A stretch of 64,000 nt of DNA from Streptomyces sp. NBC_01723 (lineage in GTDB: Bacteria; Actinomycetota; Actinomycetes; Streptomycetales; Streptomycetaceae). The position numbers and the translations under genes are program-made. The DNA lies in NCBI RefSeq assembly GCF_036246005.1, contig NZ_CP109171.1, forward strand, positions 2,406,001 to 2,470,000, written 5' to 3'. Positions 24,340-62,706 of the stretch are shown piece after piece; the first letter of the stretch is position 1, and every line of letters starts with the position of its first letter. The notes below the pieces were generated by a model, which did no database searches, had not been told where the DNA came from, and saw only the letters and a program-made list of their open reading frames with translations.

Positions 24340-24407
24340 TTGACACTCCGACCCCCCCGTCCTTACTGTCACGCCAGCATTTCGAACGAGTGACGAAATA
24401 TCGAACA
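24340..24407 (+). promoter_or_regulatory. Promoter and operator A of the sugar-catabolism genes
   Basis: TTGACA (24340-24345), 18 nt, TACTGT (24364-24369) make a good promoter. The operator CGAAC-N6-CGAAATATCGAACA (24383-24407) begins 13 nt downstream of the -10 box, covering the transcription start, where a bound protein would repress. The same 25-bp element recurs at 26708 and 62639. Confidence 0.7.
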
Positions 24408-24425
24408 GAGCGAGGGGCAGCCGCC

Positions 24426-25592
24426 GTGCGCATCACCGGAATCAGCACACACGTGGTCGGGACGCCGTGGCGGAACCTGACCTACGTCCAGGTGCACACC
24501 GACGAAGGCGTCACCGGCGTCGGCGAGACCCGGATGCTGGGGCACACCGACGCACTCGTCGGCTACCTGCGGGAGGCCGAGGCCAACCACATCCTCGGCT
24601 CCGACCCGTTCGCCGTCGAGGACTTGGTGCGCCGCATGAAGTACGGCGACTACGGTCGCGCCGGCGAGATCGTGATGTCCGGCATCGCCGTCGTCGAGAT
24701 GGCCTGCTGGGACATCAAGGGCAAGGCTCTCGGGGTCCCCGTCTGGCAGTTGCTGGGCGGCAAGGTGACCGACAAGGTCAAGGCGTACGCCAACGGGTGG
24801 TACACGACCGAGCGGACGCCGGAGGCGTACCACAAGGCCGCGCAGGGGGTCATGGAGCGCGGGTACCGGGCGCTGAAGATCGACCCGTTCGGCACCGGGC
24901 ACTTCGAACTGGACCAGCAGCAGACGAACTACGCCGTGTCGCTGATCGAGGCCGTGCGGGACGCCATCGGACCCGACGCCGAGCTGATGCTGGAGATGCA
25001 CGGCCGGTTCTCGCCCTCCACCGCCGTCCGGCTCGCCCGCGAACTCGCGCCGTTCAAGCCGGCCTGGCTGGAGGAGCCGGTCCCGCCGGAGAACCTCAAG
25101 GCGCTGCGGAAGGTCGCCGAGAAGGTGGACATCCCCGTCGCCACCGGTGAGCGCATCCACGACCGGATCGAGTTCCGCGAGCTGTTCGAGGACCAGTCGG
25201 TGGACGTCATCCAGCCCGACGTCGGCCACATCGGCGGCATCTGGGAGACCCGGAAGCTGGCCGCCACCGCCGAGACGCACTACACGCTCGTCGCCCCGCA
25301 CAACGTCGGCGGCTCCGTCCTCACCGCCGCCTCCCTCCAGGTCGGCTTCACCTCACCGAACTTCAAGATCCTGGAGCACTTCAACGACTTCGCGGACGCG
25401 GAGATCAAGAAGGTGGTGAAGGGCGCCCCGCAGGTGGACCCGGAGGACGGGTGCTTCCACCTGTCCGACGCGCCCGGCCTCGGCGTCGAGCTGGACACCG
25501 ACGCGGCGGCCGAGTTCCCCCAGCAGCAGGCCCGGTTCGACCTGTGGGCCGAGGGCTGGGAGCAGCGCAAGCCCAAGGGGACGCAGGGATGA
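24426..25592 (+). CDS. Sugar-acid dehydratase, mandelate racemase/enolase superfamily
   Basis: Mg-dependent dehydratase of 388 aa that would turn an aldonate into a 2-keto-3-deoxy acid. A capping domain (ITGISTHVV to YGDYGRAGE) precedes a TIM barrel with the basic motif ALKIDPF, metal ligands in LEMHGRF, WLEEPVPPEN and ATGERIHDR, and the His in APHNVGGSV, the pattern of galactonate/arabinonate dehydratases. GTG 24426 follows GAGGGG; the frame is open far upstream without homology. The stop overlaps the next start (ATGA), so it is coupled to the dehydrogenase. The exact sugar is not certain. Confidence 0.85.
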   Translation: MRITGISTHVVGTPWRNLTYVQVHTDEGVTGVGETRMLGHTDALVGYLREAEANHILGSDPFAVEDLVRRMKYGDYGRAGEIVMSGIAVVEMACWDIKGKALGVPVWQLLGGKVTDKVKAYANGWYTTERTPEAYHKAAQGVMERGYRALKIDPFGTGHFELDQQQTNYAVSLIEAVRDAIGPDAELMLEMHGRFSPSTAVRLARELAPFKPAWLEEPVPPENLKALRKVAEKVDIPVATGERIHDRIEFRELFEDQSVDVIQPDVGHIGGIWETRKLAATAETHYTLVAPHNVGGSVLTAASLQVGFTSPNFKILEHFNDFADAEIKKVVKGAPQVDPEDGCFHLSDAPGLGVELDTDAAAEFPQQQARFDLWAEGWEQRKPKGTQG

Positions 25593-26599
25593 GCGGCGCG
25601 GTGGCGGTCGTCGTCGAGGCGCCGGGAGCGCACCGGCTGGTGCCGCACGAGCCCGCCGAACCCGGCCCCGGCGAGGCGCTGGTGCGAGTGCACGCCGTCG
25701 GGATCTGCGGCAGCGACCGCGAGGTCTACCAGGGCAACCGGCCCGAGGGGTACGTGCGTTACCCGCTCATCCCCGGCCACGAGTGGTCCGGGACCGTGGA
25801 GCGGACCGGCGCCGGGGTGCCCGCGTCGCTGGCCGGCCGGAAGGTGGTGGGCGAGGGGTTCCGCAACTGCCAGGTGTGCGACCGCTGTCACGCGGGCGAG
25901 ACGACGCTGTGCACGGCGGGGTACGAGGAGACGGGGTTCACCCGGCCGGGCGCGATGGCGCCCACGCTGACCCTGCCCGCGCGGCTGCTGCACGTACTGC
26001 CCGACGACGCCGACCTCACCGCCGCCGCGCTGCTGGAGCCCGCGGCCTGCGTCGCCGCCGCCGCGCTGAAGGCCGGCGCCCGGCCCGGCGAGCGGGTCGC
26101 CGTCGTCGGCACCGGCACGCTCGGCATGTTCGCCGTGCAGTTCCTGCGCGCCGCCTCCCCCGCCGAGCTGCTGGTCGTCGGCACGCGCGGCGACCGGGAG
26201 GCACTGTCACGGCGGTTCGGCGCGAGCGACTTCCGCACCAGGGACCGCCCGCTCCCGGACGACTTCGACCTCGTGATCGAGACCGCCGGGTCGGCGGACG
26301 CCGCCCGCACGGCCGCCGCGCTGCTGCGCAGGGGCGGGCGGCTGGTGCTGACCGGCATCCCGGCGCCGGGCGCCGACGGCCTCGACCCGACCGACCTGGT
26401 GGTGCGGCAACTGGAGGTGCAGACGGTCTTCGGCGCGCCGCCGGACGCCTGGGCGCACACGGTGCGGGTCTTCGCGGCCGGCCTGCTCGATCCGCTGCCG
26501 CTGGTGACACACGAACTGCCGCTCGACGGGTTCCCGGAGGCCATCGAGCTGGTGGGGTCCGGTGATCCGAAGGTCGGCAAGGTGCTGCTGAGGCCATGA
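25589..26599 (+). CDS. Zinc-containing alcohol/sugar dehydrogenase (MDR family)
   Basis: NAD(P)-dependent dehydrogenase of 336 aa with catalytic zinc ligands in VGICGSDREVYQG (Cys), GHEWSGTVE (His-Glu) and ALLEPAACV (Glu). A reduced structural-zinc loop (NCQVCDRCHAGETTLC, four Cys) follows, and the nucleotide loop is VVGTGTLGMFAVQF. It resembles sorbitol/galactitol-type enzymes. ATG 25589 overlaps the dehydratase stop by 4 nt. Together the pair could carry out a sugar oxidation followed by dehydration; the lactone step is not encoded next to them. Confidence 0.9.
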   Translation: MSGAVAVVVEAPGAHRLVPHEPAEPGPGEALVRVHAVGICGSDREVYQGNRPEGYVRYPLIPGHEWSGTVERTGAGVPASLAGRKVVGEGFRNCQVCDRCHAGETTLCTAGYEETGFTRPGAMAPTLTLPARLLHVLPDDADLTAAALLEPAACVAAAALKAGARPGERVAVVGTGTLGMFAVQFLRAASPAELLVVGTRGDREALSRRFGASDFRTRDRPLPDDFDLVIETAGSADAARTAAALLRRGGRLVLTGIPAPGADGLDPTDLVVRQLEVQTVFGAPPDAWAHTVRVFAAGLLDPLPLVTHELPLDGFPEAIELVGSGDPKVGKVLLRP

Positions 26600-26707
26600 C
26601 CGCGTCCCCCGGCTCCGGCTCCTGAGCCGTACGCCGGTGCGGGGGCGACCTGACGGCCTCCGTACCGGCGTACACCCACCGGACCGCCCCGCTCGCGCCC
26701 TGAGCCG

Positions 26708-26732
26708 CGAACTTCGTCCGACATATCGAACA
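26708..26732 (+). promoter_or_regulatory. Operator B, upstream of the TIM-barrel-like gene
   Basis: CGAAC-N6-CGACATATCGAACA, 13 nt before the GTG at 26746 and in the same orientation and spacing as operator A. No convincing -35/-10 pair is seen at the matching distance, so the promoter here is weak or different. Confidence 0.6.
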
Positions 26733-26745
26733 CTAAGGACAGCTT

Positions 26746-27717
26746 GTGACCGACGCTTCCGCCCCGGCCTCCGTACGCAGGCCAGGTGAGCCGGCGCTCA
26801 CCGCTCTCGGGCTGGCCGCGCCCGCCTCCGATCCCGCCGACGCCTCGCCGCACTCCTTCCCGGACGGTGGCCGCTGGCGCACCGAGATCCCTTCCTGCGA
26901 GGGGCCGGAGGCGCTGGCGGTGGTGCTGAAGGAGTCCTCGCGGCTGGACGTGCCGATCCACCGGATCAGCCAGGGCAGCGGTGTGTGGATGCTGACCGAC
27001 GCCGAGATCACGGAGATGGTCGAGGCCACCGCCGAACGCGACATCGAGCTCTGCCTGTTCACCGGCCCGCGCGGCACCTGGGACATCGGCGGCTCCACCC
27101 GCACCGACTCGGGCGGGGCGGGACTCAGGGCGCGCGGCCACGACGCGGTCGCCGGCTGCGTCGAGGACGCCGTCCGGGCCACGGACCTGGGCGTGAAGTG
27201 CCTGCTGGTCGCCGACGAGGGCGTGCTGTGGACGCTGCACCGGGCGCGGGCGGCCGGTCTCGTGCCCGCCGACACCACGCTCAAGCTCTCCGCGCTCGTC
27301 GGCCCGGTCAACCCGGCCTCGTACGCGGTCTACGAGCGGCTCGGCGCCGACTCCATCAACGTGCCCAGCGATCTGACGCCGGATCATCTGTCCGAAATAC
27401 GGCGGGTTTCGGCCGCGCCGATGGACCTGTACATCGAGGCCCCCGACGACCTGGGCGGCTATGTGCGCATGTACGAGATCGCCGAGCTGATCCGGCGCGG
27501 CGCCCCGCTGTATCTGAAGTTCGGCCTCGCCAAGGCGCCCGGAATCTACCCGTACGGCCACCACCTGCGCGAACTGACGCTGGCCACCGCCAAGGAGCGG
27601 GTGCGGCGCGGGCGCCTCGCCCTCGACCTGCTCGCCCGGCACGGGGCGGACGGGGCGATGGCGCCGCTCGGCTCGCGGCTGCCCGGCCCGCTCAACCGGT
27701 TCGAGATCTCGTCATAA
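26746..27717 (+). CDS. TIM-barrel-like protein of unknown function in the sugar locus
   Basis: Cytoplasmic protein of 323 aa that I do not firmly recognise. Its alternating strands and helices ([92 protein letters not shown]) suggest a TIM barrel, distantly like U32 peptidase-type or aldolase-type barrels. Position between catabolic enzymes and a sugar importer, plus its own copy of the regulon operator, argues for a step in the same pathway, perhaps on the keto-deoxy acid or its phosphate. The GTG 26746 start follows AAGGAC. Confidence 0.65.
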
Positions 27718-27815
27718 CGTTCCGGAAACTCCCTTCTCAAAAGAAGACACAGCCGCGCACAATCCCACACACCTGCTCTCGGACCGAGCCCTGACCCACA
27801 TCGAGGATGATGACC

Positions 27816-28925
27816 ATGCGCAACCGCAGAGCCGCACTCGCCGCCATAGCCTCCGCCGCCTCCCTCGCCCTGACACTGACCGCCTGCGGCCAGAACAGCG
27901 AGGGTGGCAGCGAGGAGGACAAGGGCGGCGCCGACGGCGCCACCGTAGGCATCGCGATGCCGACCAAGTCCTCCGAGCGCTGGATCACCGACGGCGCCAA
28001 CGTCGAGAAGGAACTGAAGGCCAAGGGGTTCGAGACCAAGCTCGTCTTCGGCGAGGACGACCCGGACCAGCAGGTCTCGCAGCTCGAGAACATGATCACG
28101 CAGGGCGTGGACGCGCTGATCGTGGCCGCGATCGACAACAAGTCCCTGGGCAACGTCATGCAGCAGGCCAAGGACGCCGACATCCCCGTCATCTCCTACG
28201 ACCGGCTGATCCTCGGCACGGAGAACGTCGACTACTACGCCTCGTTCGACAACGAGAAGGTCGGCGAACTGCAGGGCGGTTACATCGTCGACAAGCTCGG
28301 TCTGAAGGAGGGCAAGAAGGGCCCCTTCAACATCGAGCTGTTCGCCGGCTCCAACGACGACAACAACACCAGGTACTTCTTCCAGGGCGCGATGAACGCC
28401 CTGAAGCCCTACATGGAGAAGGGCCAGTTGGTCGTACGGTCCAAGCAGACCGACCTCAACCAGGTCACCACCCTGCGCTGGGACGGCGGCACCGCGCAGA
28501 AGCGCATGGACGACCTGCTCACCTCCAGCTACCGCAGCGCCCGGGTCGACGCGGTGCTCTCGCCGTACGACGGCATCTCCATCGGCATCCTGTCCGCCCT
28601 GAAGTCGGACGGCTACGGCTCCGGCAGCAAGCCCATGCCCGTCGTCACCGGCCAGGACGCCGAGATCGCCTCGGTGAAGTCGATCAAGTCGGGCCAGCAG
28701 ACCCAGACCGTCTTCAAGGACCTGCGCGAGCTGGCCAAGGTCGCCTCGAACATGGTCGAAGCGGTACTGAACGACAAGAAGCCCGAGGTCAACGACACCA
28801 AGTCCTACGACAACGGATCCAAGGTCGTCCCCGCCTACCTGCTCGAGCCGGTCAGCGTCGACAAGACCAACTACGAGAAGGTCCTCGTCGACGGCGGCTA
28901 CTACAGCGCGGACGACCTCAAGTAA
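27816..28925 (+). CDS. Sugar ABC importer, substrate-binding lipoprotein (ChvE-type)
   Basis: Extracytoplasmic sugar-binding lipoprotein of about 369 aa. The signal peptide ends in a lipobox near LTLTACGQ, with Cys27 lipidated. The mature part is the periplasmic-binding type 1 fold ([59 protein letters not shown]), closest to ChvE, which binds arabinose, galactose, xylose and related sugars. ATG 27816 is chosen because GAGG lies 10 nt upstream; ATGs at 27807 and 27810 are too close. It is the first gene of a binding protein-ATPase-permease set. Confidence 0.92.
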
Positions 28926-28957
28926 CCGGGCTCCCTCAAGGATTGGAAGGCACGACC

Positions 28958-30513
<1,556 letters not shown>

Positions 30514-30517
<4 letters not shown>

Positions 30518-31758
30518 GCACGGACGTGACCGCCAAGACCCCGGCCCCCGCGCCGCCCGGCAAGGGCGGATCAGCCGCCGGCGACGGCCTGTTGCGGCTG
30601 ATGCTCGACGGCATGCGCCGCAACATGCGGCAGTACGGCATGCTGATGGCGCTCGGCCTGATCGTGGCGCTGTTCGCCGTGTGGTCCGACGGCGACCTGC
30701 TGCTGCCGCGCAACGTGTCCAACCTGGTGCTGCAGAACAGCTACATCCTGATCCTCGCGATCGGCATGATGCTCGTCATCATCGCGGGCCACATCGACCT
30801 GTCGGTCGGCTCGCTGACGGCGTTCATCGGCGCGATGGCCGCCGTGCTCATGGTCGACAACGATCTGCCGTGGCCGCTCGCGGTGGTGCTCTGTCTCGCC
30901 ATCGGCGCGGCGGCGGGGGCGACGCAAGGGTTCTTCATCGCCTATCTCGGCATACCGTCCTTCATCGTGACCCTCGCGGGCATGCTGCTCTTCCGCGGTC
31001 TGACGGAGATCTTCCTGAAGGGCCAGACGCTCGGCCCGTTCCCGAAGGACCTCCAGAAGATCGCCAACGGGTTCCTGCCCGAGGTCGGTCCGAACACCAA
31101 CTACCACAACCTGACGCTGCTCCTGGGCTTCACCCTGATCGCCTTCGTCATCTACCAGGAGGTCCGCGACCGCCGGCGGCAGCAGGAGTTCTCCCTCGAC
31201 GTGCCGCCGGCCAAGCTGTTCCTGCTCAAGGTGGTCGCGCTGGTCGCCGCCGTCCTCGTCGTCACGCTGCTGCTCGCCAGCTACAAGGGCGCGCCGGTGG
31301 TGCTCCTCATCCTGGGCGTGCTGGTCGTCGGCTTCGGCTACCTGATGCGCAACGCGATCCTCGGCCGCCACATCTACGCCATCGGCGGCAACCTGCCCGC
31401 CGCCAAGCTCTCCGGCGTGAAGGACAAGAAGGTCACCTTCCTGGTCTTCCTGAACATGGGCATGCTCGCGGCGCTGGCCGGTCTGGTCTTCGCCGCCCGT
31501 TTCAACGCGGCCTCCCCCAAGGCCGGCCTCAACTTCGAACTGGAGGCCATCGCCGCCTCGTTCATCGGCGGTGCGTCGATGAGCGGCGGCGTCGGCACGG
31601 TCCTCGGCGCGATCATCGGCGGTCTCGTCCTGGGCGTGCTGAACAACGGCATGAACCTCGTCGGGATCGGCACCGACTGGCAGCAGGTCATCAAGGGCGC
31701 GGTGCTGCTGGCCGCGGTCGGGTTCGACGTGTGGAACAAGCGGCGGGTCGGTTCTTAG
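30514..31758 (+). CDS. Sugar ABC importer, permease subunit
   Basis: Integral membrane permease of 414 aa (BPD_transp_2 family) with about ten helices. The family motif [18 protein letters not shown] lies near residue 90, and the ATPase-coupling loop is [20 protein letters not shown], typical of MmsB/XylH proteins. A single permease gene implies a homodimer. ATG 30514 overlaps the ATPase stop (ATGA), fixing the stoichiometry by translational coupling. A short CGGTCC/GGACCG hairpin follows the stop. Confidence 0.95.
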
Positions 31759-31806
31759 AGAGGCGGTCCATTCGGACCGTACGGAGACCGCGGTCCGGTG
31801 GTGACC

Positions 31807-31840
31807 GGTCGCGCAGTTCGCCGCGCCCCTGAAGGAGCGC
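31807..31840 (+). repeat. Streptomyces intergenic repeat, GGTCGCGCAGTTC type (copy 2)
   Basis: GGTCGCGCAGTTC (31807-31819) followed by GCCGCGCCCCTGAAGGAGCGC. It shares its 5' half with the copy at 12502 but its return arm has diverged. It lies between the permease and the exported mutarotase. Confidence 0.65.
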
Positions 31841-31869
31841 TTCCATCAACCCACTCGAGGAGTTGCCAT

Positions 31870-33018
31870 ATGGAACTGAACAGGCGCACGGTCATCGCCG
31901 GCGCGGCCGCAGCCGGTCTCACCGCCGCCACCCTCGGCGGCACCGCACACGCCACGGGAGGCTCGAAGCCGGTGAAGGAACTCTTCGGCAGGCTCGCCGA
32001 CGGGACGAAGGTGTACCGCTGGTCGCTGGAGAACGGCGGCACCCGGATGAAGGTGCTCTCCTACGGCGGGGCCGTCCAGTCGCTGGAGATCCCCGACCGC
32101 CGGGGCCGCCACGCGAACGTCTCCCTGGGCTTCGACAACCTCGACGACTACGTGGCTTCCAGCCCCTACTTCGGCGCCCTGATCGGCCGTTACGGCAACC
32201 GCATCGGCAAGGGCCGCTTCACCCTGGACGGCGAGGAGTACCAACTCTCCGTCAACGACGGCGAGCACAGCCTGCACGGCGGCGCGCGAGGCTTCGACAA
32301 GCGGGTGTGGGACGTCGAGCCGTTCACCGAGGGCCCCGACGTCGGCCTGGTGCTGCACTACACCGGCGTCGACGGCGAGATGGGCTACCCGGGCACGCTC
32401 CGGGCACGGGTGACGTACACGCTCACCCGGCGCGGGGACTGGCGCGTCGACTACGCGGCCACCACCGACCGGGCCACCGTCGTCAACCTCACCAGCCACG
32501 TCTACTGGAACCTGGCCGGTGAGGGCAGCGGCACGGTCGAGGACCACGAGCTGTCGATCGCCGCCTCCCGCTACACGCCCACCGACGCGGGCCTGATCCC
32601 GACCGGTGAACTGGCGCGGGTGTCCGGGACGCCCTTCGACTTCCGCCGGGGCAAGCCCGTGGGCCGGGACATCCGGGACAACCATCCGCAGCTGGTCACC
32701 GCCAAGGGCTTCGACCACAACTGGGTGCTGGACAAGGGCGTCACCGACCGCCCCGAGCACGTCGCCACCCTGCGCGACCCCGCCTCGGGCCGCACCCTGC
32801 GCATCGCCACCGACCAGCCCGGCCTCCAGTTCTACTCGGGCAACTTCCTGGACGGCACCCTGACCGGGACGGGCGGCGCGCTCTACCGCCAGGGCGACGC
32901 CCTGTGCCTGGAGACGCAGCACTTCCCGGACTCGCCGAACCAGCCGTCGTTCCCGTCGACGGTGCTGCGGCCCGGACAGACGTACCGGACCTCGACGGTG
33001 CACTCGTTCGGCGCGTGA
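31870..33018 (+). CDS. Tat-exported aldose 1-epimerase
   Basis: Mutarotase of 382 aa carrying a twin-arginine signal ([20 protein letters not shown], residues 4-23), so it folds in the cytoplasm and works outside. Catalytic motifs match galM at 14.2 kb: [24 protein letters not shown] with His, and [12 protein letters not shown] with Glu. ATG 31870 follows GAGGAG. Placed after the ABC importer, it would speed anomer exchange of released sugars before uptake. It is about 60 residues longer than the cytoplasmic paralogue, mostly from the signal and a C-terminal insert ([15 protein letters not shown]). Confidence 0.92.
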
Positions 33019-38132: not shown

Positions 38133-38644
38133 CGCTCCTCGCCCTCCTTCTCCCCCTCGACCGGTACGGCGCTCAGCGCTCGCACCTTCCACTCCCCCTC
38201 GCCGGTGCGGGCCAGGACCGCCTCCAGGCGCTTGCGGTCGGTGGCCGGCCTCTTCGTCGTGGCGGGCGTGACCTCGACGCGGACCGTGGCGATGAGCTTG
38301 GCCGTGCCGGACCGGGTGTCGAGCGCGGTGACGGCGGCCTCGGTGACCGTGGCGCGCGCCGAGGAGCCCGCGGCGGGCTCGGTGTCGCCGAGTTCCTCGC
38401 GCAGCGGCCCGGTGGAGACGGCGCGCCAGTCCCGGATGCTGCGCTCCGCCCGCTGCCGGGTGGAGGCGTCGAGCGTGGTGAGTACGGCGATGCCCTCGCG
38501 GCCGTCGGCGAGCGCCTCGTCCCGCTCCCTGCCGTACGCGAGCGAGTCGTCGGTGCGCGCCTGGGCGTACGTCCAGGCACCGGTGGCGCAGACGCCGAGG
38601 GCCAGGGCGAGCGCCGCTCCGGTGAGGATCCGCGCCCGCCTCAC
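38129..38644 (-). CDS. Mce-associated membrane protein 1
   Basis: Protein of 171 aa: short N-terminus RRAR, TM helix (ILTGAALALALGVCATGAWTY) and an external NTF2-like domain (REGIAVLTTLDASTRQRAERSIRDWRAV split near residue 50, then VTALDTRSGTAKLIATVRVEV). GTG 38644 overlaps the stop of the sixth mce gene (GTGA), so it is coupled to the Mce proteins directly. Confidence 0.82.
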   Translation of the reverse strand: MRRARILTGAALALALGVCATGAWTYAQARTDDSLAYGRERDEALADGREGIAVLTTLDASTRQRAERSIRDWRAVSTGPLREELGDTEPAAGSSARATVTEAAVTALDTRSGTAKLIATVRVEVTPATTKRPATDRKRLEAVLARTGEGEWKVRALSAVPVEGEKEGEER

Positions 38645-39921
38645 CGCGCACCGCCGGTGGCCGGGGTGAGGAGCGCGGACAGGTCGGACGGTGCCTCGCC
38701 GCTCTGTCCGGGGAGCGCGAGGGCGCCGGGGAGTGCCTCGCCGCCGCCGCTGCCCTTGGTGCCGGCGCCGCCCGAGGGCAGGGAGCCGGGCCGGGCGGGT
38801 TCGGGTACCGCGCCGCCCTTCGGGGCGTTCCCCGAGCCGCGCACGTTGGACCCGCCGGAGGCCGGGGCGGTGCAGGCCGCGTCGGTGTTGAGGGCGGGCG
38901 CGGTGCCGAGGTCGAGGCCGTTGCGGTAGCGCGTGCCGCCGTATCCGTCGGTGCAGGGCAGGGGGGTGAAGAAGGTGACGGCCATGCCGAGGTTCAGCTT
39001 CCCTCCGTCGACGGCGGTGGCACCGGCGGAGACGGCCGCCGGGTACTTCACGAGGAGTTCCTCGATGCCGCGCTGCCGGGTGACGGCGACCTCGGAGGTG
39101 GTGAGGAGGTTGGCGAGGACGACGCCCAGGCTCGGGTCGAGGTCCCGCAGTAGGCCGCTGACCTGGGTGGCGGCTTCGGGGGTGACCGCGAGGAGGCGGC
39201 GCAGGTCGGCGTCCGAGCCCTTGAGGGCGGCGGCCAGTTCCTCGGCTCCGACGGCGAAGCCGCGGATGGCCTCGGACTCCTCGGCCTGGGTGCGCAGGAC
39301 GGTCTCGCCGTCGTTGATGAGCAGCGTGGTGGACGGCAGGGCCCGGTCGGCGGCCTCCACGAAGTCGCTGCCGCTGTCGAGCAGCACCTGGAGGTCGTCG
39401 CCGTGCCCCTCGAATGCCTTGCCGAACTCGTCGACGACCGTGCGCAGATCCTCCAGCGGGACGGAGCCCACGAGGTCGTCGACGCTGGTGAGGACGTCGG
39501 TGACGGGTGCGGGCACCTGGGTGTCGGCCTGTTCGACGCGGGCGCCGTCGGCCAGGTAGGGGGAGCCGTCGCTCTCGGGCCGCAGGTCGATGTACTGCTC
39601 GCCCACGGCGGAGAGCCCGGCGACCACGGCCTTGGTGTCGGCGGGGATGCGGGGCGCGGACTTCTTGATGCGCAGTTCGGCGACGACGCCCTCGGCGGTG
39701 AGGTCGATCGGGCCGACGCGGCCCACCGAGACGCCCCGGTAGGTGACGTCGGAGTGGGTGAACAGCCCGCCGGTGCGCGGTAGTTGTACGTCGACGGTGT
39801 AGTAGTCGGCGACGCCCACGTACCGGCCGAGGTCGGCGTAGCGGATGCCGAGGTAGGAGAGGGCGAGGACGGCGACGAGCAGGAAGGCGAGGTTCTTCAG
39901 CCGTACGGCGAGGGTGATCAC
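38641..39921 (-). CDS. Mce family protein, sixth in the operon (MceF position)
   Basis: Substrate-channel subunit of 426 aa. A short basic cytoplasmic tail and TM helix (LAFLLVAVLALSYLGIRYAD) anchor it. The MCE/MlaD domain follows (YYTVDVQLPRTGGLFTHSDVTYRGVSVGRV), then a long helical domain to residue about 350, and a Gly/Pro/Ser-rich tail of about 70 residues. Six such proteins stack into a tube that carries hydrophobic molecules to the permease. GTG 39921 overlaps the previous stop (GTGA). Confidence 0.93.
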   Translation of the reverse strand: MITLAVRLKNLAFLLVAVLALSYLGIRYADLGRYVGVADYYTVDVQLPRTGGLFTHSDVTYRGVSVGRVGPIDLTAEGVVAELRIKKSAPRIPADTKAVVAGLSAVGEQYIDLRPESDGSPYLADGARVEQADTQVPAPVTDVLTSVDDLVGSVPLEDLRTVVDEFGKAFEGHGDDLQVLLDSGSDFVEAADRALPSTTLLINDGETVLRTQAEESEAIRGFAVGAEELAAALKGSDADLRRLLAVTPEAATQVSGLLRDLDPSLGVVLANLLTTSEVAVTRQRGIEELLVKYPAAVSAGATAVDGGKLNLGMAVTFFTPLPCTDGYGGTRYRNGLDLGTAPALNTDAACTAPASGGSNVRGSGNAPKGGAVPEPARPGSLPSGGAGTKGSGGGEALPGALALPGQSGEAPSDLSALLTPATGGAR

Positions 39922-41078
39922 CCGCGCTCACCTCCGGGCTCGGTCACGGAGGGCAGCGGCAGGGGTGCGGCGGACCGCTGCTCCGCCGGTGCGGAGGACC
40001 GCTTCTTCGCCGGTGTGCCCTCGGGCACGATCGGCGGGATCACCTCGGTGCCGGGCACGGCGACCATGCTCAGGTACGTGTTGAGGTAGTCGCCCTTCAC
40101 ACCGCGCAGCACCTCGTCGGTGAACGGGTAGGTCAGCAGCACCTGGAGCGAGTCGGGCAGGTCCGTGCCCGCGTCGGCGAGCGCCTTCAGTGTCGGCGCG
40201 ACGGCCTTGAGGTCGGCGATCATGTCGTCCTTGCTCGCGTTGATCGTGGAGACGGCGACGCCGGAGAGCGTGTCGAGGGAGCGCAGCATGGTCAGCAGGG
40301 AGCCGCGCTGTTTCTCCAGCGTCTTCAGGCCGGGCGAGAGGCCGGTGAGGACGGTGCCGACGTCCTCCTTGCGGGTGGCGAGGGTGGAGGAGAGCCGGTT
40401 GACGGCGTCGAGGGCGTCGGTGATGTCGCCCCGGTGGTCGTCGAGGTCGCCGACCAGGGTGTTGACCCGCTTGAGCATGGAGCGGACCTCGGGTTCGCGG
40501 CCGCCGAGCGCCGCTCCCAGTTCCCGGGTGATGGTCTTGAGCTGGCTGACGCCGCCGCCGTTGAGCAGCAGGGACAGCGCGCCGAACACCTCTTCGACCT
40601 CGGTGTTGCGCCCGGTGCGGGCCAGCGGGATGACGCTTCCGTCCTCGAGGGGGCCGGCGCCGGTGTCCTCGGCGGGTGCGACGAGCTGGACGTACTTCTC
40701 TCCCAGCAGGCTGGACTGTTCGAGCCGCGCGGTGGTGTCGGCGGGCAGCCGCACCTCGCCGTTGATCTCCATGGTGACGCGGGCCGACCAGTCGTCCTCG
40801 CCGAGTTCGATGCCGGTGACCCGGCCGACGGCCACGTCGTTGACGCGCACCGCGGAGTGCGGGACCAGGCTGAGCACGTCCTGGAGTTCCGCGGTGACGG
40901 TGCGGGGGTGGTCGCCGAGGTCGGCGCCGCCGGGCAGCGGCAGGTCGTCGAGGCCGCCGAAGCCGCGGGGCACGACGGTGATCCCGCCGACGGCCAGGAC
41001 GAAGCCGAGACCGAGGGCGATCAGTCCGCCCGCGGTCAGTCCGGCGGCCCGGCCGGCGGTGAGGGTGCCGCGCTTCAT
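39918..41078 (-). CDS. Mce family protein, fifth in the operon (MceE position)
   Basis: Mce protein of 386 aa with TM helix (LTAGGLIALGLGFVLAVGG), MCE domain (VTAELQDVLSLVPHSAVRVNDVAVGRV) and long helical region (ALDAVNRLSSTLATRKEDVG), ending in a Lys/Ser/Pro-rich tail. In mycobacterial operons the fifth Mce protein is a lipoprotein; here no lipobox Cys is present, so it is anchored by its helix only. ATG 41078 overlaps the previous stop (ATGA). Confidence 0.93.
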   Translation of the reverse strand: MKRGTLTAGRAAGLTAGGLIALGLGFVLAVGGITVVPRGFGGLDDLPLPGGADLGDHPRTVTAELQDVLSLVPHSAVRVNDVAVGRVTGIELGEDDWSARVTMEINGEVRLPADTTARLEQSSLLGEKYVQLVAPAEDTGAGPLEDGSVIPLARTGRNTEVEEVFGALSLLLNGGGVSQLKTITRELGAALGGREPEVRSMLKRVNTLVGDLDDHRGDITDALDAVNRLSSTLATRKEDVGTVLTGLSPGLKTLEKQRGSLLTMLRSLDTLSGVAVSTINASKDDMIADLKAVAPTLKALADAGTDLPDSLQVLLTYPFTDEVLRGVKGDYLNTYLSMVAVPGTEVIPPIVPEGTPAKKRSSAPAEQRSAAPLPLPSVTEPGGERG

Positions 41079-45451: not shown

Positions 45452-45452
45452 C

Positions 45453-46259
45453 TCACCCCGCCACCTTCACGGTCGTGGTCGCGCCCCACAGGGCCAGCGA
45501 CAGGAAGAAGTCGGTGACGCTGATCAGCACGATGGCGTTGCGCACGGACCGGCCGACGGCGACGCCGACGCCGGCGGGACCGCCCGAGGCGCGGTAGCCG
45601 TAGTAGCAGTGGGCGACGATCACCATCACGCTGAAGATCAGCACCTTCAGTACGGAGAGCAGCACGTCCGTCGGGGAGAGGAAGAGGTTGAAGTAGTGGT
45701 CGTACGTCCCGCGCGACTGCCCGTTGAACAGGACGGTCACGTAGCGGGAGGCGAGGTAGGAGGAGAGCAGCCCGATCGCGTAGAGCGGGACGATGGCGAC
45801 CACGCCGGCGATGATGCGGGTGGTGACCAGGTAGGGCATGGAGCGGATGCCCATGCCCTCCAGGGCGTCGACCTCCTCGTTGATGCGCATGGCGCCGAGC
45901 TGGGCGGTGAAGCCCGCCCCGACGGTCGCGGAGAGGGCGAGTCCGGCGACGAGGGGCGCGATCTCGCGGGTGTTGAAGTAGGCGGAGACGAATCCGGTGA
46001 ACGCGGCGGTGCCGATCTGGTCGAGGGCCGCGTAGCCCTGGAGTCCGACGACGGTCCCGGTGAAGAGCGTCATCGCGATCATCACGCCGATGGTGCCGCC
46101 GATGACGCCGAGGCCGCCGGAGCCGAAGGCCACCTCGGCGAGGAGGCGCTGCACCTCCTTGAGGTAGCGGCGCAGGGTCCGCGGTATCCACAGCAGGGCC
46201 CGTACGTAGAACAGCAGTTGGTCGCCGGACCGGTCGAGCCAGACGAGCGGGGAGGCCAT
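45453..46259 (-). CDS. YrbE/MlaE permease B of the Mce transporter
   Basis: Integral membrane permease of 268 aa with five or six helices. The MlaE family hallmark is the EEVDALEGMGI(R)SMPYLV loop, which contacts the ATPase (the E-E-x-x-A-L-x-x-x-G signature). GLGVIGGTIGVMIAMTLFTG and IIAGVVAIVPLYAIGLLSSY are membrane segments. It forms the pore with YrbEA under the Mce tube. It lies 3 nt after the YrbEA stop. Confidence 0.95.
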   Translation of the reverse strand: MASPLVWLDRSGDQLLFYVRALLWIPRTLRRYLKEVQRLLAEVAFGSGGLGVIGGTIGVMIAMTLFTGTVVGLQGYAALDQIGTAAFTGFVSAYFNTREIAPLVAGLALSATVGAGFTAQLGAMRINEEVDALEGMGIRSMPYLVTTRIIAGVVAIVPLYAIGLLSSYLASRYVTVLFNGQSRGTYDHYFNLFLSPTDVLLSVLKVLIFSVMVIVAHCYYGYRASGGPAGVGVAVGRSVRNAIVLISVTDFFLSLALWGATTTVKVAG

Positions 46260-55178: not shown

Positions 55179-55235
55179 GGCGGGGATGGCACAGTGGAGA
55201 GTCCCCGTCCCGGCTCAAGGGAGACTGATCCGTCG

Positions 55236-55904: not shown

Positions 55905-55934
55905 CCGCCGGGGCCCCCGCGGGCCGGCCGCCGG

Positions 55935-57221: not shown

Positions 57222-57315
57222 ACCGACCATTGTGCGGTCCGCTGGAAGAATGGCCGGGCACGGACGGTCCCGCTCACGCGGCAGCACCGGAAGCACGGCA
57301 ACAGGAGAGGCTCCC

Positions 57316-60069
57316 TTGGAGCTCAGCAGTCTCAGCAGACGAGCGTTCAGCGCCCTCGCGGGCACCACCGTCCTCGGGCTCGCGCTCGGCGGCAGCGTGA
57401 GCGGCGCGGCGCCGGCCGGTCCCCCCGGCCCCGTGCCCACCGGTCCGCCGCCCGGGCCGCCCGGCGCCGACGGGCTGCGCCACCGGGTCGCCCTGGACCG
57501 GTACTCCCTGCTGGTGGACGGCAGACGGCTGGCGCTGTGGTCCGGTGAGCTGCACCCCTTCCGGCTGCCCAGCCCGTCCCTGTGGCGGGACGTGCTCCAG
57601 AAGATGCGGGCGTACGGCCACAACGCGGTCAGCGTCCGCCTCGCCTGGAACCAGCACTCCCCCGCCCCGGGCGCGTACGACTTCACCGGCGTCCGCGACC
57701 TCGACCTGTTCCTGCGGACGGCCGCGGAGAGCAGTCTGTACGTCGTGGTCCACCCCGGCCCGTACATCGGCGCCGACGTGGACGCGGGCGGCCTGCCCGG
57801 CTGGCTGGCGGCCACCGGGGCCGTGCCCAGGAGCACGGACCCCGCGTACCTGCGCCACGCCGACGAGTGGCTGAGCCGGGTCAACGCGGTCGTCGCCCGG
57901 CACCAGTTCACCCGGGGCACCGGCACCGTCCTGCTCTACCGGGCCGACGCCCCCGACCGCGCCGACCTGACCCACCTGCACGAGCGGATCCGCGCCGACG
58001 GCATCGACGTACCCCTGCTGCACGCAGGCACCACCCTCGCCTGGGACGAGGCGGAGCGGACCCGGGACGCCGCCGAGGCGCGGCGGGTGCACCTCGACGG
58101 CCTGGCGCGCGGGACCACGCTGCACAACGTCCACATGGCGTACGGCGGCACCTCGTGGGGCTGGCTGCCCGCGCCGTCGGCGCCCGCCCCCACCTACGAC
58201 CCGGCCGCCGCCATCGACGAGGCACGCCGGCCCACCGCCGAACTCGCCCCGCTCCACCAGCTCGGGCACCTGCTGCGCCACGTCCCCGACTTCACCCGGC
58301 TCGACGAGGCGGCGGAGGTCCGGGCCGCGGACGCCCGCGTCCAGGTGCGGCACCTGGCCAACCCGGACACCGGCGCCCACGCCTACGTGCTGCGCAACAA
58401 CTCCGCCGCCGCCGTCACCTCCACCGTCCCGATGGACGGGACCGACGTCGAGGTCACCGTCCCCGCCCGCGACGCCAAGCTGCTCGCCACCGGCCTCCAC
58501 CTGGGCGCGGGACGGAAACTGGCGTACGCCACCGTGCAGCCCATGCTGTCCCTGAGCGTGGGGCGGGTGGACATCGCCGCGTTCGTGGGGCGGGCCGGGG
58601 AGATGGCGCACCTGGTCCTCGACTGCCCGCAGGAGCCCTGGCCGACCCGCCTGGACGAGGAGGCCGCCTGGGCGTTCGACCACGGGAAACTGCACGTGAC
58701 CGTACCTCTCAAGGAGGACCGGCTGACCCGGGTGCGGGTACGCGGCGCCGATTCCGACCGCACCCTGCTGCTGCTCCTCGCCGACGACGCCGCCTCACTG
58801 CGGCTGTGGCCGTACGAGACGCCGTCGGGCCGGGTCCTGGTCCGCGGCCCGGAGCTGCTGCGCGAGGCCGTGCTGGACGGGGACACGATCCGGCTGACCG
58901 GTGACACCGTCGGCGAGCGCGAGCTGGAGGTGTGGGCGCCGCGCGGCATCGGCCGGCTCACCTGGAACGGCACGGCGGTGCAGGCGTCCTTCGGCCGCGC
59001 CCAGAGCCTGATGACGGTGTGGCCGCTGCCCGGCGTGCCCGAGGTGGCGCTGCCCGAACTCGACGGCTGGCGGCGGCGGACCGAGAACCCCGAGTCCGCG
59101 CCGGAGTACGGCGACTCGGGGTGGACGGTCGCCGACCGGCGGACCTCGCACAGCACCACCCCGGTGCCCGGCGGACAGCCCGTGCTCTTCGCCGACGACT
59201 ACGGCTACCACTACGGCGACGTCTGGTACCGCGCCCGTCTCACCGGGGCCGCCGGTCTGGAGTCGGTGTCCCTGTCCTACGCCACCGGCGCGCGCGGCCT
59301 GCTGATGGCGTGGCTGGACGGCGAACCGCTGGGCGTCCACCGTCCGGACGACGGGGAGGACGGGCCGGACACCTGGACCGGCACGGCGGAACTGGGCGTG
59401 CCGGCGGGTCTGCGCGGGACCCGGCGGGAGCGCGCCGACGGCGGCGACTCGGCCGTCCTGTCCGTCCTGGTCCGGCGCACCCAGCACGGCCAGGACGACC
59501 CGCGGGCGGCCCGCGGACTGACGTCGGCCGCCTTCGAGGGGGCCTCGCCGGAGGTGCGCTGGCGGATCCGGGGGGCGGTCACGCCCGACCCCGTGCGCGG
59601 GCCGCTCAACCACGGCGGGCTGTACGGGGAACGGCACGGCTGGCATCTGCCGGGGTACGACGACGGCGACTGGGAGAAGGCGTCCCCGGCGGACCTCCCG
59701 CGCGAGGACCGGCGCCAGGGCGTGACCTGGTACCGGACCACGTTCCGGCTGGACGTGCCGCCGGAGGTGGACGCCTCGGTCGGCCTCGTCCTCGACGACG
59801 CCCCGGACGGCGACCACCGCGTCCAGGTCTTCCTGAACGGCTGGAACATGGGCGAGTACGCGGCCGGCCGCACCGGCGCGGCACACACCTTCGTCCTGCC
59901 GAACGGCATCCTGCGCACCCGGGCCGCCGCCAACACCCTGGCCCTGGCGGTGCTGGCCGACGGCGAGTCGGCACCGGGGCCCGGGACGGTACGGCTGGAG
60001 CTGCTGGGCAGCGCGGCCGGAGGGGTACCGGTGAAGCCGGTCGCCTCCCCCGGCCGGCGCCGCGACTGA
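57316..60069 (+). CDS. Tat-exported GH35 beta-galactosidase-like protein lacking catalytic glutamates
   Basis: Exported protein of 917 aa. Tat signal SLSRRAFSALAGTTVLGLAL (residues 4-23), then a Pro/Gly linker, a GH35-like barrel (YSLLVDGRRLALWSGELHPF, VSVRLAWNQHSPAPGAYDF, VHPGPYIGADVDAGGLPGWL, YGGTSWGWLP) and C-terminal beta-sandwich domains. Where the family has the acid/base Q-x-E-N-E-Y after TVLLY, this protein has RADAPD (about residue 207), and the stretch with the nucleophile E-F-Q-G-G before the YGGTSWG motif is missing. TTG 57316 follows GGAGAGG. It is probably a carbohydrate-binding or inactive relic; the reading frame is intact over 2.7 kb. Confidence 0.82.
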   Translation: MELSSLSRRAFSALAGTTVLGLALGGSVSGAAPAGPPGPVPTGPPPGPPGADGLRHRVALDRYSLLVDGRRLALWSGELHPFRLPSPSLWRDVLQKMRAYGHNAVSVRLAWNQHSPAPGAYDFTGVRDLDLFLRTAAESSLYVVVHPGPYIGADVDAGGLPGWLAATGAVPRSTDPAYLRHADEWLSRVNAVVARHQFTRGTGTVLLYRADAPDRADLTHLHERIRADGIDVPLLHAGTTLAWDEAERTRDAAEARRVHLDGLARGTTLHNVHMAYGGTSWGWLPAPSAPAPTYDPAAAIDEARRPTAELAPLHQLGHLLRHVPDFTRLDEAAEVRAADARVQVRHLANPDTGAHAYVLRNNSAAAVTSTVPMDGTDVEVTVPARDAKLLATGLHLGAGRKLAYATVQPMLSLSVGRVDIAAFVGRAGEMAHLVLDCPQEPWPTRLDEEAAWAFDHGKLHVTVPLKEDRLTRVRVRGADSDRTLLLLLADDAASLRLWPYETPSGRVLVRGPELLREAVLDGDTIRLTGDTVGERELEVWAPRGIGRLTWNGTAVQASFGRAQSLMTVWPLPGVPEVALPELDGWRRRTENPESAPEYGDSGWTVADRRTSHSTTPVPGGQPVLFADDYGYHYGDVWYRARLTGAAGLESVSLSYATGARGLLMAWLDGEPLGVHRPDDGEDGPDTWTGTAELGVPAGLRGTRRERADGGDSAVLSVLVRRTQHGQDDPRAARGLTSAAFEGASPEVRWRIRGAVTPDPVRGPLNHGGLYGERHGWHLPGYDDGDWEKASPADLPREDRRQGVTWYRTTFRLDVPPEVDASVGLVLDDAPDGDHRVQVFLNGWNMGEYAAGRTGAAHTFVLPNGILRTRAAANTLALAVLADGESAPGPGTVRLELLGSAAGGVPVKPVASPGRRRD

Positions 60070-60081
60070 CCGGGCCGGGGC

Positions 60082-61587
60082 TCAGCGCAGCCGGATCACG
60101 TTCCAGGACAGCGGCTCCAGTACGGCGGTCAGGGTGCCGTCGCGCAGCGCGGTGCCGTCCACCCGGTGCGGGACGACCCGTTCGGGGTCGGCGAGCGTGT
60201 TGTGGGCGTCCGGGTCGGCGTCCGCGAGGGCGCTGTGCTCGACGACGTCCGTCAGCTCCAGGGCGCCGAGGGCGACGTCCAGCGGCAGCGGCTCGGTGCG
60301 GGAGCGGTTGACGGCGAAGACGGTGACCGAGCCGTCCTCGGCGCGCACGGCCGTCGCGTGCAGCAGGTCGGCCTCGCCGTACTTCGCCGTCCCGTACGTC
60401 GGTGAGTCCACCCGCACGTCGAGGACCTCGCCGCGGCCGTACCGCGAGGCCTGCGCGAACGGGAAGAACGTGGTCTGGCGCCAGGCCGGGCCGCCCGGCT
60501 CGGTCATGATCGGGGCGATGACGTTGACGAGCTGGGCGAGGCAGGCGACGGCGACGCGGTCGGCGTGCCGGAGCAGGGCGATGAGGAGCGAGCCGAAGAC
60601 GACCGCGTCCATGACGCTGTAGTTGTCCTCCAGCAGGCGGGGCGCCTCGGGCCAGTCGAGGGCGCTCACCTCGGCCTGCGACTTCGACATGTACCAGACG
60701 TTCCACTCGTCGAAGGAGAGGTTGATCCGCTTCTTCGACTTGAGCCGGGCGCCGACGTGGTCGCAGGTGGCGACGACGTTCTCGATGAACGACTCCATGT
60801 CCACGGCGGAGGCGAGGAAGGAGTCGACGTCACCGTCGAGCGGCTCGTAGTAGGCGTGCAGGGAGATGTGGTCGACGAGGTCGTACGTCTCCTCGAGGAC
60901 CGTCGCCTCCCACGCGGCGAAGGTCTCCATGGACTGGCCGGACGAACCGCAGGCGACGAGTTCGACGTCCGGGTCGATCTGGCGCATGGCCCGCGCGGTC
61001 TCGGCGGCGAGCCGCCCGTACTCCTCCGCGGTCTTGTGGCCGGTCTGCCAGGGGCCGTCCATCTCGTTGCCGAGGCACCAGAGCCTGATGCCGAAGGGGT
61101 CCTTGTCTCCGTGCTCGGCCCGCAGGTCCGACAGCGTGGTGCCGGCGGGGTGGTTGGCGTACTCCTGGAGTTCCAGCGCCTCGGCCACGCCCCGGGTGCC
61201 GAGGTTGACCGCCATCATGGGCTCGGCCTGCGGGCCGACCTTCCTGAGGAAGGCGATGTACTCGGACAGGCCGAAGCGGTTGGTCTCCGTGGAGCGCCAG
61301 GCCAGGTCGAGGCGGCGGGGGCGGTCCTCGGCCGGACCGACCGAGTCCTCCCACTTGTAGCCGGAGACGAAGTTGCCGCCGGGGTAGCGGACGGCGGTGA
61401 CGCCGAGTTCCCGGACGAGGTCCAGTACGTCCCGGCGCAGCCCGTCGTCGTCCGCGGCGGGGTGTCCGGGTTCGAAGATGCCGGTGTACACGCAGCGGCC
61501 GAGGTGCTCGACGAAGGAGCCGAAGAGGCGGGGGTCTACGTCTCCGATGGTGAAGGCCGGGTCCAGGGTGAAGCGGGCGGTGCGCAT
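60082..61587 (-). CDS. GH51 alpha-L-arabinofuranosidase (intracellular, AbfA-type)
   Basis: Releases arabinose from arabino-oligosaccharides; 501 aa, the usual length, no signal peptide. The acid/base is Glu175 in CLGNEMDGPW and the nucleophile Glu294 in FDEWNVWYM; GGNFVSGYKWEDSVGP is the family substrate loop. ATG 61587 follows AAGGGAAAAG. The open frame continues to 62880, but homology starts here. The likely promoter and operator lie at 62639-62706, more than 1 kb upstream, beyond a TnpB remnant. The gene is convergent with the GH35-like gene, 12 nt away. Confidence 0.95.
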   Translation of the reverse strand: MRTARFTLDPAFTIGDVDPRLFGSFVEHLGRCVYTGIFEPGHPAADDDGLRRDVLDLVRELGVTAVRYPGGNFVSGYKWEDSVGPAEDRPRRLDLAWRSTETNRFGLSEYIAFLRKVGPQAEPMMAVNLGTRGVAEALELQEYANHPAGTTLSDLRAEHGDKDPFGIRLWCLGNEMDGPWQTGHKTAEEYGRLAAETARAMRQIDPDVELVACGSSGQSMETFAAWEATVLEETYDLVDHISLHAYYEPLDGDVDSFLASAVDMESFIENVVATCDHVGARLKSKKRINLSFDEWNVWYMSKSQAEVSALDWPEAPRLLEDNYSVMDAVVFGSLLIALLRHADRVAVACLAQLVNVIAPIMTEPGGPAWRQTTFFPFAQASRYGRGEVLDVRVDSPTYGTAKYGEADLLHATAVRAEDGSVTVFAVNRSRTEPLPLDVALGALELTDVVEHSALADADPDAHNTLADPERVVPHRVDGTALRDGTLTAVLEPLSWNVIRLR

Positions 61588-61842
61588 CTTTTCCCTTCGG
61601 GGGTTGTGAACTGCCGGTCCATGACCGCGTATGCAGGTGCTCTGGCGTGAATGAGTGAGTACGGCGGCGGGTCGGAGGGCTCGGCGTCCGGGTGCGAACG
61701 GGAGTCTGTCCGTCGAATGTGTGACCTCTGGTGAGTGGTCGTCGTTGGATGGGGCGTGCGGGTCTTCACGGCTGATCGGTGTGTGTGGGTGGGTGGTCTG
61801 CGGAAGCCTTCGGCGCCGTTCGTGGTGCCCGGGCCGTCGGGG

Positions 61843-62532
61843 GTGGCGGTCCGTACCCGGCTCAGGCAGCTCGGCGCTGCCGACGTGGAGGTGCTGCGGC
61901 GGGTGGGCGCGATCTGTGCCCACGCGTACATCCAGTCGCTGGAGGCGGGGGCACGGACCCTGCGTCACCGGTTGTCGCCGCCCGTCGGCCAGAAGGGCGC
62001 GAAGCACGCTCCGGGTGGGTATCGCAGTCGGCGGGAGTGGCATGCCGGGGCCCGCCGACCGCACGTCCTGGAGGACCGGCCGGCACGGGAGCGCGCCGAC
62101 TGGGCGGCCGGGACCGTGCACGTCGTGCGGGGCGGCGAGCGCCTGGCCCGCGCGCGGCACCGCTTGCCCGCCGCCGGGCTCAGCGAGGCCGGGTGGCGTG
62201 AACGGTGGGAAGCCGCACGCTGGTTTGTGCAGGCGGACGGGGAGTCCGGGAAACGATTCGGGAACGAGACCATCCGCATCACCCCGGACGGCGAGGTCAG
62301 CATCAGGCTCCCCGCCCCACTCCAGGAGTTGGCCGATGCGCCGCACGGCCGGTACGTCCTGACCGGCAGGGTGACGTTCGCGCACCGCGGGCAGGAGTGG
62401 GCCGACCGCGCAGCGGCGAACCGGGCCGTCGCCTACCGCATCCACCACGACCCGGCCCGTGGCCGCTGGTACGTGACCGCGTCCTGGCAAAAGCCCGTCA
62501 CCCGCACGATCCCCCTGAACGCGGGGCTGGCG
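61843..62532 (+). pseudogene. TnpB (IS605/IS607-type OrfB) remnant, N-terminal part only
   Basis: Translation of this stretch shows the conserved N-terminal half of Streptomyces TnpB proteins: VRTRLRQLG, SLEAGARTLRHRLSPPVG, APGGYRSRREWH, ADGESGKRFGNETIRITPDG, APHGRYVLTG, FAHRGQEWADRA and AYRIHHDPARGRWYVTASWQ. About 40-50 residues are missing after VGAICAHAY, and similarity stops at LNAGLA, so the whole RuvC nuclease domain and the zinc finger are gone. No inverted repeats or TnpA are seen. The stretch 61588-61842 upstream and 62533-62638 downstream holds no other recognisable gene. It is antisense to the leader of the GH51 gene. Confidence 0.8.
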
Positions 62533-62638
62533 CTGCCCGCGACCGTGAGGCCGCCCGCCGCGGCGAGGAAGTGCCTGCGATCCAGGCCAGGTCGTCCCAT
62601 GCCCTGCCCTATCTGTTCGACATCTGCCCGACATTGAT

Positions 62639-62706
62639 TGTTCGAGATTTCGAATGACGCTCGTAACTTCGAACGGGACCGTAGGTGTGCAGCGCTTGCG
62701 CGTCAA
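62639..62706 (-). promoter_or_regulatory. Promoter and operator C, directed toward the GH51 gene
   Basis: Minus strand: TTGACG (62706-62701), 17 nt, TACGGT (62683-62678), 14 nt, then the operator CGAGC-N6-CGAAATCTCGAACA (62663-62639). The layout copies operator A almost exactly. The start codon in this direction is at 61587, with the TnpB remnant in between. Confidence 0.7.

Follow-up and report, generated by a model that had tools for sequence, protein, structure and literature searches.

Three copies of a 25 bp element, designated S1, S2 and S3, are present in a 64000-nucleotide stretch of DNA from Streptomyces sp. NBC_01723 (contig NZ_CP109171.1, positions 2406001 to 2470000 of the forward strand), referred to below as the window, and a fourth, S4, lies 6.3 kb past its right end. 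We consider it probable, at approximately 0.78, that S1–S4 serve as operators for a repressor of the IclR family, encoded a short way beyond the window, and that the genes behind them form a regulon, probably for the use of L-arabinose. The sites, their conservation, their co-occurrence with the iclR gene, their promoter-proximal position and the gene content of the units were all computed directly and are described in turn.

The operator sites and the probable regulator gene

Scanning with the pattern CGARC-N6-CGAMATMTCGAACA (25 bp) returned S1, S2 and S3 in the window without a single mismatch (Table 1), in agreement with a preliminary description of this DNA, which had reported three elements of identical length and internal spacing. 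When up to three mismatches were allowed, the window yielded four matches against an expected 0.06, a number reached by none of 100 shuffles; the fourth of these (10349–10373, minus strand) carries three mismatches and looks like a chance match. The genome scan proposed in the preliminary description gave, at up to two mismatches in the strain's own 8.85 Mb genome, exactly four matches, namely S1–S3 and S4 (G000:C1:2476263-2476287, minus strand), and no scatter over random positions was seen. At up to three mismatches there were 12 matches, compared with four for the reversed control pattern. A search of the same genome for weaker regulon members, using the half site YCGAMATMTCGAACA at up to two mismatches, gave 94 matches where the reversed control gave 51, which is too noisy, and a fifth regulon member is therefore not claimed.

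Downstream of S4 on the same strand, after 21 nt, a gene for an IclR-family protein begins. The preliminary description had placed the cognate regulator elsewhere, there being no regulator gene beside the sites of the window, and it was right to do so; its reader saw none because the iclR gene, with a site of its own, lies outside the window. The suggested LacI, GntR or ROK regulator had to be given up, as the regulator gene with its own site is of the IclR family and no member of those other families is needed once it has been found. The protein exceeds the Pfam cut-offs for both IclR_C (PF01614, 164 bits, cut-off 24) and HTH_IclR (PF09339, 49 bits, cut-off 22). Two further candidates were rejected, since neither has a site at up to three mismatches: a GntR-type gene (identified by eye) beyond iclR, at 71017–71724 in window coordinates, and a MarR gene at 23009–23467, the nearest regulator gene to S1, whose counterpart in the relative L046 (by eye) likewise has no site.

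Conservation of the sites and co-occurrence with the regulator

In a sample of 61 Streptomyces genomes, 143 matches at up to two mismatches were present in 45 genomes, compared with two matches for the reversed control. An IclR orthologue (E≤1e-70) was found in 42 of the 61, and the dehydratase behind S1 (E≤1e-150) in 39, all of which are also IclR-positive. Each of the 39 dehydratase genes has a same-strand site (up to two mismatches) 20–86 nt before its codon 2, so that conservation upstream of orthologous genes, on which the preliminary description had staked the motif, held for this gene. A site is present somewhere in 41 of the 42 IclR-positive genomes and in 4 of the 19 IclR-negative ones (Fisher, 8e-10; species counts here and below, including the Fisher tests, treat related species as independent), and in nine genomes iclR and the dehydratase gene are divergent neighbours around the operator, with a gap of 165–430 nt. 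Order-wide, at up to one mismatch, a match was found in 69 of 104 Streptomyces genomes and in none of the 15 from outside the genus.

A collection of named genomes held at least 127 exact sites on at least 118 stretches, four of the sites being too near a stretch end to be assessed; the counts that follow refer to the matches listed. The dehydratase gene follows 84 sites, the TIM-barrel gene 20, a binding-protein gene five, an aldose epimerase gene four, araB two, ChvE one and other genes seven, which places 116 of the 123 assessable sites before regulon genes or araB. Twelve of the 118 stretches carry names other than Streptomyces. They include two Prauserella and one Actinomadura, in which the site is followed by the dehydratase or TIM-barrel gene, and also two of Actinoallomurus, two from Actinoplanes relatives, one of Ruicaihuangia and one of Paracoccus. 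Four of the seven other sites were read by eye and stand before a ChvE-like gene, a GH43-like gene, a GH54-like arabinofuranosidase gene (Actinoallomurus) and the Ruicaihuangia operon; the remaining three are those of Paracoccus, Paractinoplanes and Actinoplanes. An IclR relative was detected in all 11 genomes searched, nine with unusual sites and two ordinary; among the nine, identity was 76–91% in seven, 64% in Actinoallomurus and 48% in Ruicaihuangia. In Ruicaihuangia caeni (L184, 5923–5947) the exact motif has on one side an IclR gene of 47% identity and on the other an operon that by eye resembles one for aromatic breakdown, and related IclR proteins may, to judge from such sequences, use near-identical sites for other pathways.

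A short motif with three copies in one window might have arisen by chance or be a dispersed repeat that regulates nothing. This is so improbable that it can be set aside, given the 0.06 matches expected in the window, the conservation of the operator in relatives and the genes that the exact sites of named genomes precede; on this sequence evidence, the element is a real, conserved operator, far from chance. It is also very unlikely that the motif is bound by some other regulator, such as a second IclR paralogue, and that iclR with S4 is a co-regulated passenger. Such a regulator would suit the extra sites, several in number, that related genomes carry outside the known units, the mutual resemblance of IclR operators (that of GylR is an example) and the exact site before other genes beside the Ruicaihuangia protein. 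Against it, every dehydratase-bearing genome among the 61 (39 of 39) also has the IclR orthologue, the occurrence of sites goes with that of IclR, and iclR and the dehydratase gene flank the operator divergently in nine genomes.

Position of the operators relative to promoters

The boxes TACTGT and TACGGT end 13 nt before S1 and 14 nt before S3 respectively, as the preliminary description had noted for two of its three sites, and have −35-like hexamers 18 or 17 nt further upstream (Table 1). A strict σ70 consensus scan calls neither promoter, because the −10 boxes match TATAAT at only three of six places. The comparison of 30 dehydratase loci (fetched from 39 hits, own genome included) showed TTGACA and a TANNNT box in all 30, a −35/−10 spacer of 18 nt in 27 and 17 nt in three, and a gap from −10 box to operator of 13 nt in 29 and 14 nt in one; this near-fixed spacing agrees with the repressor-like position earlier ascribed to the element. 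TACGGT recurs by eye at many S3-type sites of relatives, and at the iclR loci TTGCC is found within 60 nt upstream of the site in 26 of 30, and most of these loci show, by eye, a TAGCCT-like box ahead of the site. At the 30 dehydratase loci the S1 site averaged 1.68 bits per position, compared with 1.08 for the 60 nt upstream and 0.24 for the 45 nt downstream; the corresponding values for S4, from 26 of 30 iclR loci (four with more than five mismatches were dropped), were 1.42, 0.79 and 0.25.

Three of the four operators (S1, S3 and S4) thus lie directly downstream of a −10 box, and repression is therefore likely. That the IclR protein is instead an activator appears quite unlikely. The family does include activators; according to the part of PMC8222616 available, the sites of PcaU, PobR and HmgR contain an additional direct half site, and PobR and PcaU are termed activators in titles that it cites. 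At S1, S3 and S4, however, a bound protein would be placed where it hinders the polymerase, which argues for a repressor. As a separate observation, an 18 bp uninterrupted RNA hairpin lies at 26629–26673, between the zinc dehydrogenase and TIM-barrel genes and just upstream of S2 (81 nt folded, −50.1 kcal/mol, z −5.0, equalled by none of 200 shuffles); it has no T run, its right arm is seen again, by eye, in several relatives, and it is possibly a transcript boundary.

Operator class

Suvorova and Gelfand 2021 (PMC8222616) describe, in the part of the paper available, a subgroup iv of group 1 IclR-family operators, NGT-12-ACN, with the consensus NGTYCRAW4TYGRACN. The right part of our sites departs from this consensus at 3, 1, 2 and 4 positions in S1, S2, S3 and S4 respectively, S2 being the best of the four, and 30, 0, 6 and 194 of 5000 letter shuffles fitted equally well, so that S4 alone is weak. 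Two half sites, TCGAAC-type arms and an 18 bp core are features shared with subgroup iv as that text presents it, and by sequence the operators fit this published architecture. The same source reports that sugar and sugar-acid genes are frequent in subgroup iv regulons and that tandem sites 18–22 nt apart occur in 94 of 181 groups. Upstream of S3 and S4, in GTTCGAAGTTACGAGC and GTTCGCGATTACGACC respectively, we recognized by eye a second imperfect inverted pair, GTTCG...CGAGC and GTTCG...CGACC, centred approximately 19 nt upstream, which agrees with that tandem spacing. The CGARC of the preliminary description is the inner arm of this second pair; its 25-mer, exact at S1–S3, is only part of a longer IclR-type site.

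AraR and AraC are the L-arabinose regulators of other bacteria, where they control genes of arabinose uptake and breakdown; they belong to other protein families, unlike the IclR protein found here. Within the IclR family, the best solved-structure match is a chain of KdgR (1ysp), a regulator of sugar-acid genes. The protein nevertheless falls below the NCBIfam cut-offs for KdgR, BhcR and PcaR/PcaU, its score against the KdgR equivalog NF011671 being 162.8 bits with a cut-off of 275, and so it is distinct from KdgR, whose motif, given in Table 1 of PMC8222616, also differs. GylR, the IclR-family glycerol repressor of Streptomyces, differs in controlling the glycerol operon and has other targets, as far as the accessible part of PMC9732521 goes. 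Neither the present regulon nor its regulator is named in the accessible part of PMC8222616, and a prior prediction in its supplementary regulog tables is possible.

The probable sugar and its pathway

From the genes and sites compared, the sugar of the regulon is most likely L-arabinose. Exact sites before araBAD or aldose epimerase genes in other species point to this sugar; among the matches listed, they precede araB-araA-araD in Streptomyces stelliscabiei and in Streptomyces sp. MBT65, and the araB, araA and araD genes of locus L176 pass their NCBIfam cut-offs (AraD for the subfamily model only). L-Arabinose isomerase (PF02610) had no match in the strain's own genome, in a search that was positive in 5 of 14 control genomes, and with this enzyme absent, the set of dehydrogenase, lactonase and dehydratase is suggestive of an oxidative route. 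The families of that route stand under one type of operator, with a zinc dehydrogenase and an MR_MLE dehydratase behind S1 and an SMP-30/SGL protein behind S4, and a non-phosphorylative oxidative use of L-arabinose is plausible at the level of families, each substrate being a prediction. The zinc dehydrogenase is proposed, from its context, to be an L-arabinose 1-dehydrogenase. The preliminary description had spoken of a sugar regulon, and the units do hold a dehydratase, dehydrogenase, transporter, epimerase, lactonase and GH51 enzyme.

AraA was present in 7 of the 61 genomes. A site precedes araB in one of the three IclR-positive genomes with araBAD (three mismatches, 28 nt) and in none of the four IclR-negative ones (five copies). 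The araBAD with a site is close to that of L176 (89% AraB identity), whereas the copies without one are distant (65–67%). The idea that araA and IclR are mutually exclusive was dropped, as araA occurs in 3 of 42 IclR-positive and 4 of 19 IclR-negative genomes (Fisher, 0.19, not significant). In Streptomyces sp. SirexAA-E, proteomics data in the accessible part of PMC12772271 show SACTE_1896 (dehydrogenase), SACTE_1899 (monosaccharide ABC ATPase), SACTE_1900 (permease) and SACTE_1901 (arabinofuranosidase) 1.8- to 2.7-fold up on xylose over glucose, and to judge from annotation and order these look like proteins of the window's cluster.

Several observations weigh against a repressor-controlled L-arabinose regulon. 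Three genomes have IclR without the dehydratase; only 7 of the 42 IclR genes have a same-strand site before them at up to two mismatches (15 in either orientation), and 30 IclR loci comprised six with two mismatches, seven with three, seven with four and ten with five or more. Two of the eight Streptomyces TIM-barrel loci have at least four mismatches. The sequence upstream of S1 and S4 is fairly conserved too, as expected of promoters, and the strict σ70 scan recognized no promoter before S2; this operator may control a promoter that went unseen, or serve as a roadblock. Two of the three IclR-positive araBAD genomes carry a distant araBAD without a site. The SirexAA-E proteins rose on xylose, and the part of PMC12772271 at hand reports no arabinose culture. 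Finally, galactonate dehydratase is the NCBIfam model that the dehydratase fits best, and several sugars are substrates of ChvE-type transporters.

The last two points bear on the possibility that the same operator and IclR repressor govern a regulon for D-galactose, or for galactose and arabinose together, built on a D-galactonate dehydratase and a galactose mutarotase. L-Arabinose and D-galactose have the same configuration at C2–C4, so that the enzymes could take both sugars. The dehydratase falls just under the cut-off of its nearest model, galactonate dehydratase NF010624 (296.4 bits, cut-off 311), the score of the epimerase is high enough for the subfamily model of galactose-1-epimerase (295, cut-off 240) and too low for the equivalog (326, cut-off 398), and a GH35 β-galactosidase-like gene adjoins that of GH51. 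Yet the glycosidase at the operator is GH51, the GH35 gene having no site at up to three mismatches, and araBAD, a set of genes specific to L-arabinose, stands behind exact sites in two other species. We accordingly give galactose a low but appreciable probability and retain L-arabinose as the likelier sugar.

The TIM-barrel protein

No Pfam or NCBIfam family exceeded its cut-off for the TIM-barrel protein behind S2. Its AlphaFold2 model folds as a barrel (mean pLDDT 81), for which CutC, RuBisCO-like proteins, class II aldolases and a U32 protein are about equally good matches by score, and therefore no function follows from the fold. Of 296 genomes sampled across the phylum, 31 encode the protein, eight of them Streptomyces. 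At 22 distant loci, from the 23 non-Streptomyces genomes, a dehydratase 57–60% identical to that of the window directly follows in 11; all 11 pairs belong to one family (f18) and perhaps reflect one inheritance. Many of its invariant charged residues (e.g. R45, E47, R73, E101, D157, K180, D227 and K258) lie in or next to predicted barrel strands. It is the only candidate in the units for the last step (keto-deoxy acid aldolase or dehydratase), and we propose that it acts on the product of the dehydratase. That it represents a new enzyme family, which cleaves or dehydrates 2-keto-3-deoxy-L-arabinonate and so completes the oxidative use of L-arabinose, is a tentative suggestion, somewhat more doubtful than not.

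Gene content of the units

The features of the regulon are collected in Table 1. All three proteins of the ChvE-GguA-GguB transporter exceed the cut-offs of their NCBIfam equivalogs (NF040907, NF040905 and NF040906).

Table 1 Predicted operators, promoters and genes of the regulon (window coordinates unless a genome coordinate is given)
Feature	Position	Strand	Details
Operator S1	24383–24407	+	13 nt after −10 box, 18 nt before dehydratase start codon
Operator S2	26708–26732	+	13 nt before TIM-barrel gene start codon
Operator S3	62639–62663	−	In relatives, precedes binding-protein gene or directly GH51
Dehydratase operon promoter	24340–24369	+	TTGACA 24340–24345, 18 nt, TACTGT 24364–24369
Promoter at S3	62678–62706	−	TTGACG 62701–62706, 17 nt, TACGGT 62678–62683
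MR_MLE (enolase-superfamily) sugar-acid dehydratase	24426–25592	+	Profile search from codon 2
Zinc-dependent alcohol dehydrogenase family	25589–26599	+	Pfam ADH_N and ADH_zinc_N over cut-off
TIM-barrel protein	26746–27717	+	Sub-threshold U32-peptidase likeness
ChvE-GguA-GguB monosaccharide ABC transporter	27807–31758	+	Genes 27807–28925, about 28958–30517 and 30514–31758
Aldose 1-epimerase (GalM type)	31798–33018	+	Pfam/NCBIfam profile search
GH51 α-L-arabinofuranosidase (ArfA)	60082–61587	−	NF051901, 737 bits, cut-off 625
Remnant, first 30 codons of sugar-binding-protein gene	62511–62600	−	tblastn, 80% identity, residues 1–30
iclR-family regulator gene	G000:C1:2475468-2476241	−	257 residues, 5.5–6.2 kb outside window
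SMP-30/SGL (gluconolactonase-type) lactonase gene	Directly after iclR		S4 unit

The preliminary description had each site pointing at a sugar gene. This stands for S1 (dehydratase) and S2 (TIM-barrel protein); behind S3 the first gene is a 30-codon remnant of a binding-protein gene, and GH51 follows only after approximately 1 kb. In the relative G059 the order after the site is binding protein, two permeases and GH51, and tblastn found no match to the rest of the binding protein or to the two permeases at the strain's own locus. Twenty regions of relatives held 17 S3-type sites (sites not before dehydratase, TIM-barrel or iclR genes), whose first gene by eye was the binding protein in eight, GH51 in six and not assignable in three. 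The approximately 0.9 kb at 61600–62510 stands where relatives have the binding-protein and permease genes; a 300-codon plus-strand frame in it gave no Pfam or NCBIfam match at E up to 1, and a TnpB transposase fragment, suspected there by eye on the plus strand, was rejected on the same searches. The GH35 gene (57232–60069) is convergent with GH51, and a similar GH35-like gene (by eye) adjoins GH51 in the relative L055.

Two neighbouring regions were also noted. A minus-strand gene run at 38641–46259 resembles, by eye, an mce-type import operon. A gene for a proline- and threonine-rich membrane-type protein (23502–24212) is divergent from the dehydratase gene; SCO2400 and SCO2404 of S. coelicolor are the putative counterparts of this gene and of ChvE. 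Both SCO genes are listed as GlnR-regulated in the accessible part of PMC10704036, and the putative SCO2400 link hints at nitrogen control of the region.

Proposed mechanism and significance

Binding, repression, the effector and the substrates of each enzyme and transporter are predictions from sequence, and the following scheme is offered in that sense. Without inducer, the repressor would sit just downstream of the −10 boxes and block four units: the dehydratase and zinc dehydrogenase (S1); the TIM-barrel protein, ChvE-GguAB and the epimerase (S2); the sugar-binding protein, permeases and GH51, of which the uptake genes would have been lost in the present strain (S3); and the regulator's own gene with the SMP-30-type lactonase (S4). 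L-Arabinose or a pathway intermediate would bind the C-terminal IclR domain and cause the repressor to release the DNA. Arabinosides would then be imported and cut by GH51, the epimerase balancing the anomers, and the sugar would be oxidized to the lactone, opened to the aldonate and dehydrated to a 2-keto-3-deoxy acid, on which the TIM-barrel protein would perhaps act in a further step.

L-Arabinose is a main sugar of the plant debris on which Streptomyces live. Literature searches, whose scope left most subscription journals and supplements outside, found no arabinose regulator for Streptomyces and no paper on an IclR arabinose regulator. As far as these searches show, the predicted regulator, sites and gene set are new for Streptomyces, within a known type of IclR control, a conclusion that we regard as well supported. 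The likely regulator, its sites and its gene set would thereby be named for approximately two-thirds of the species sampled (IclR in 42 and dehydratase in 39 of 61), the operator and its repressor would offer a candidate arabinose-inducible element for Streptomyces genetics, and a hitherto uncharacterized TIM-barrel family would be given a place in a defined pathway.

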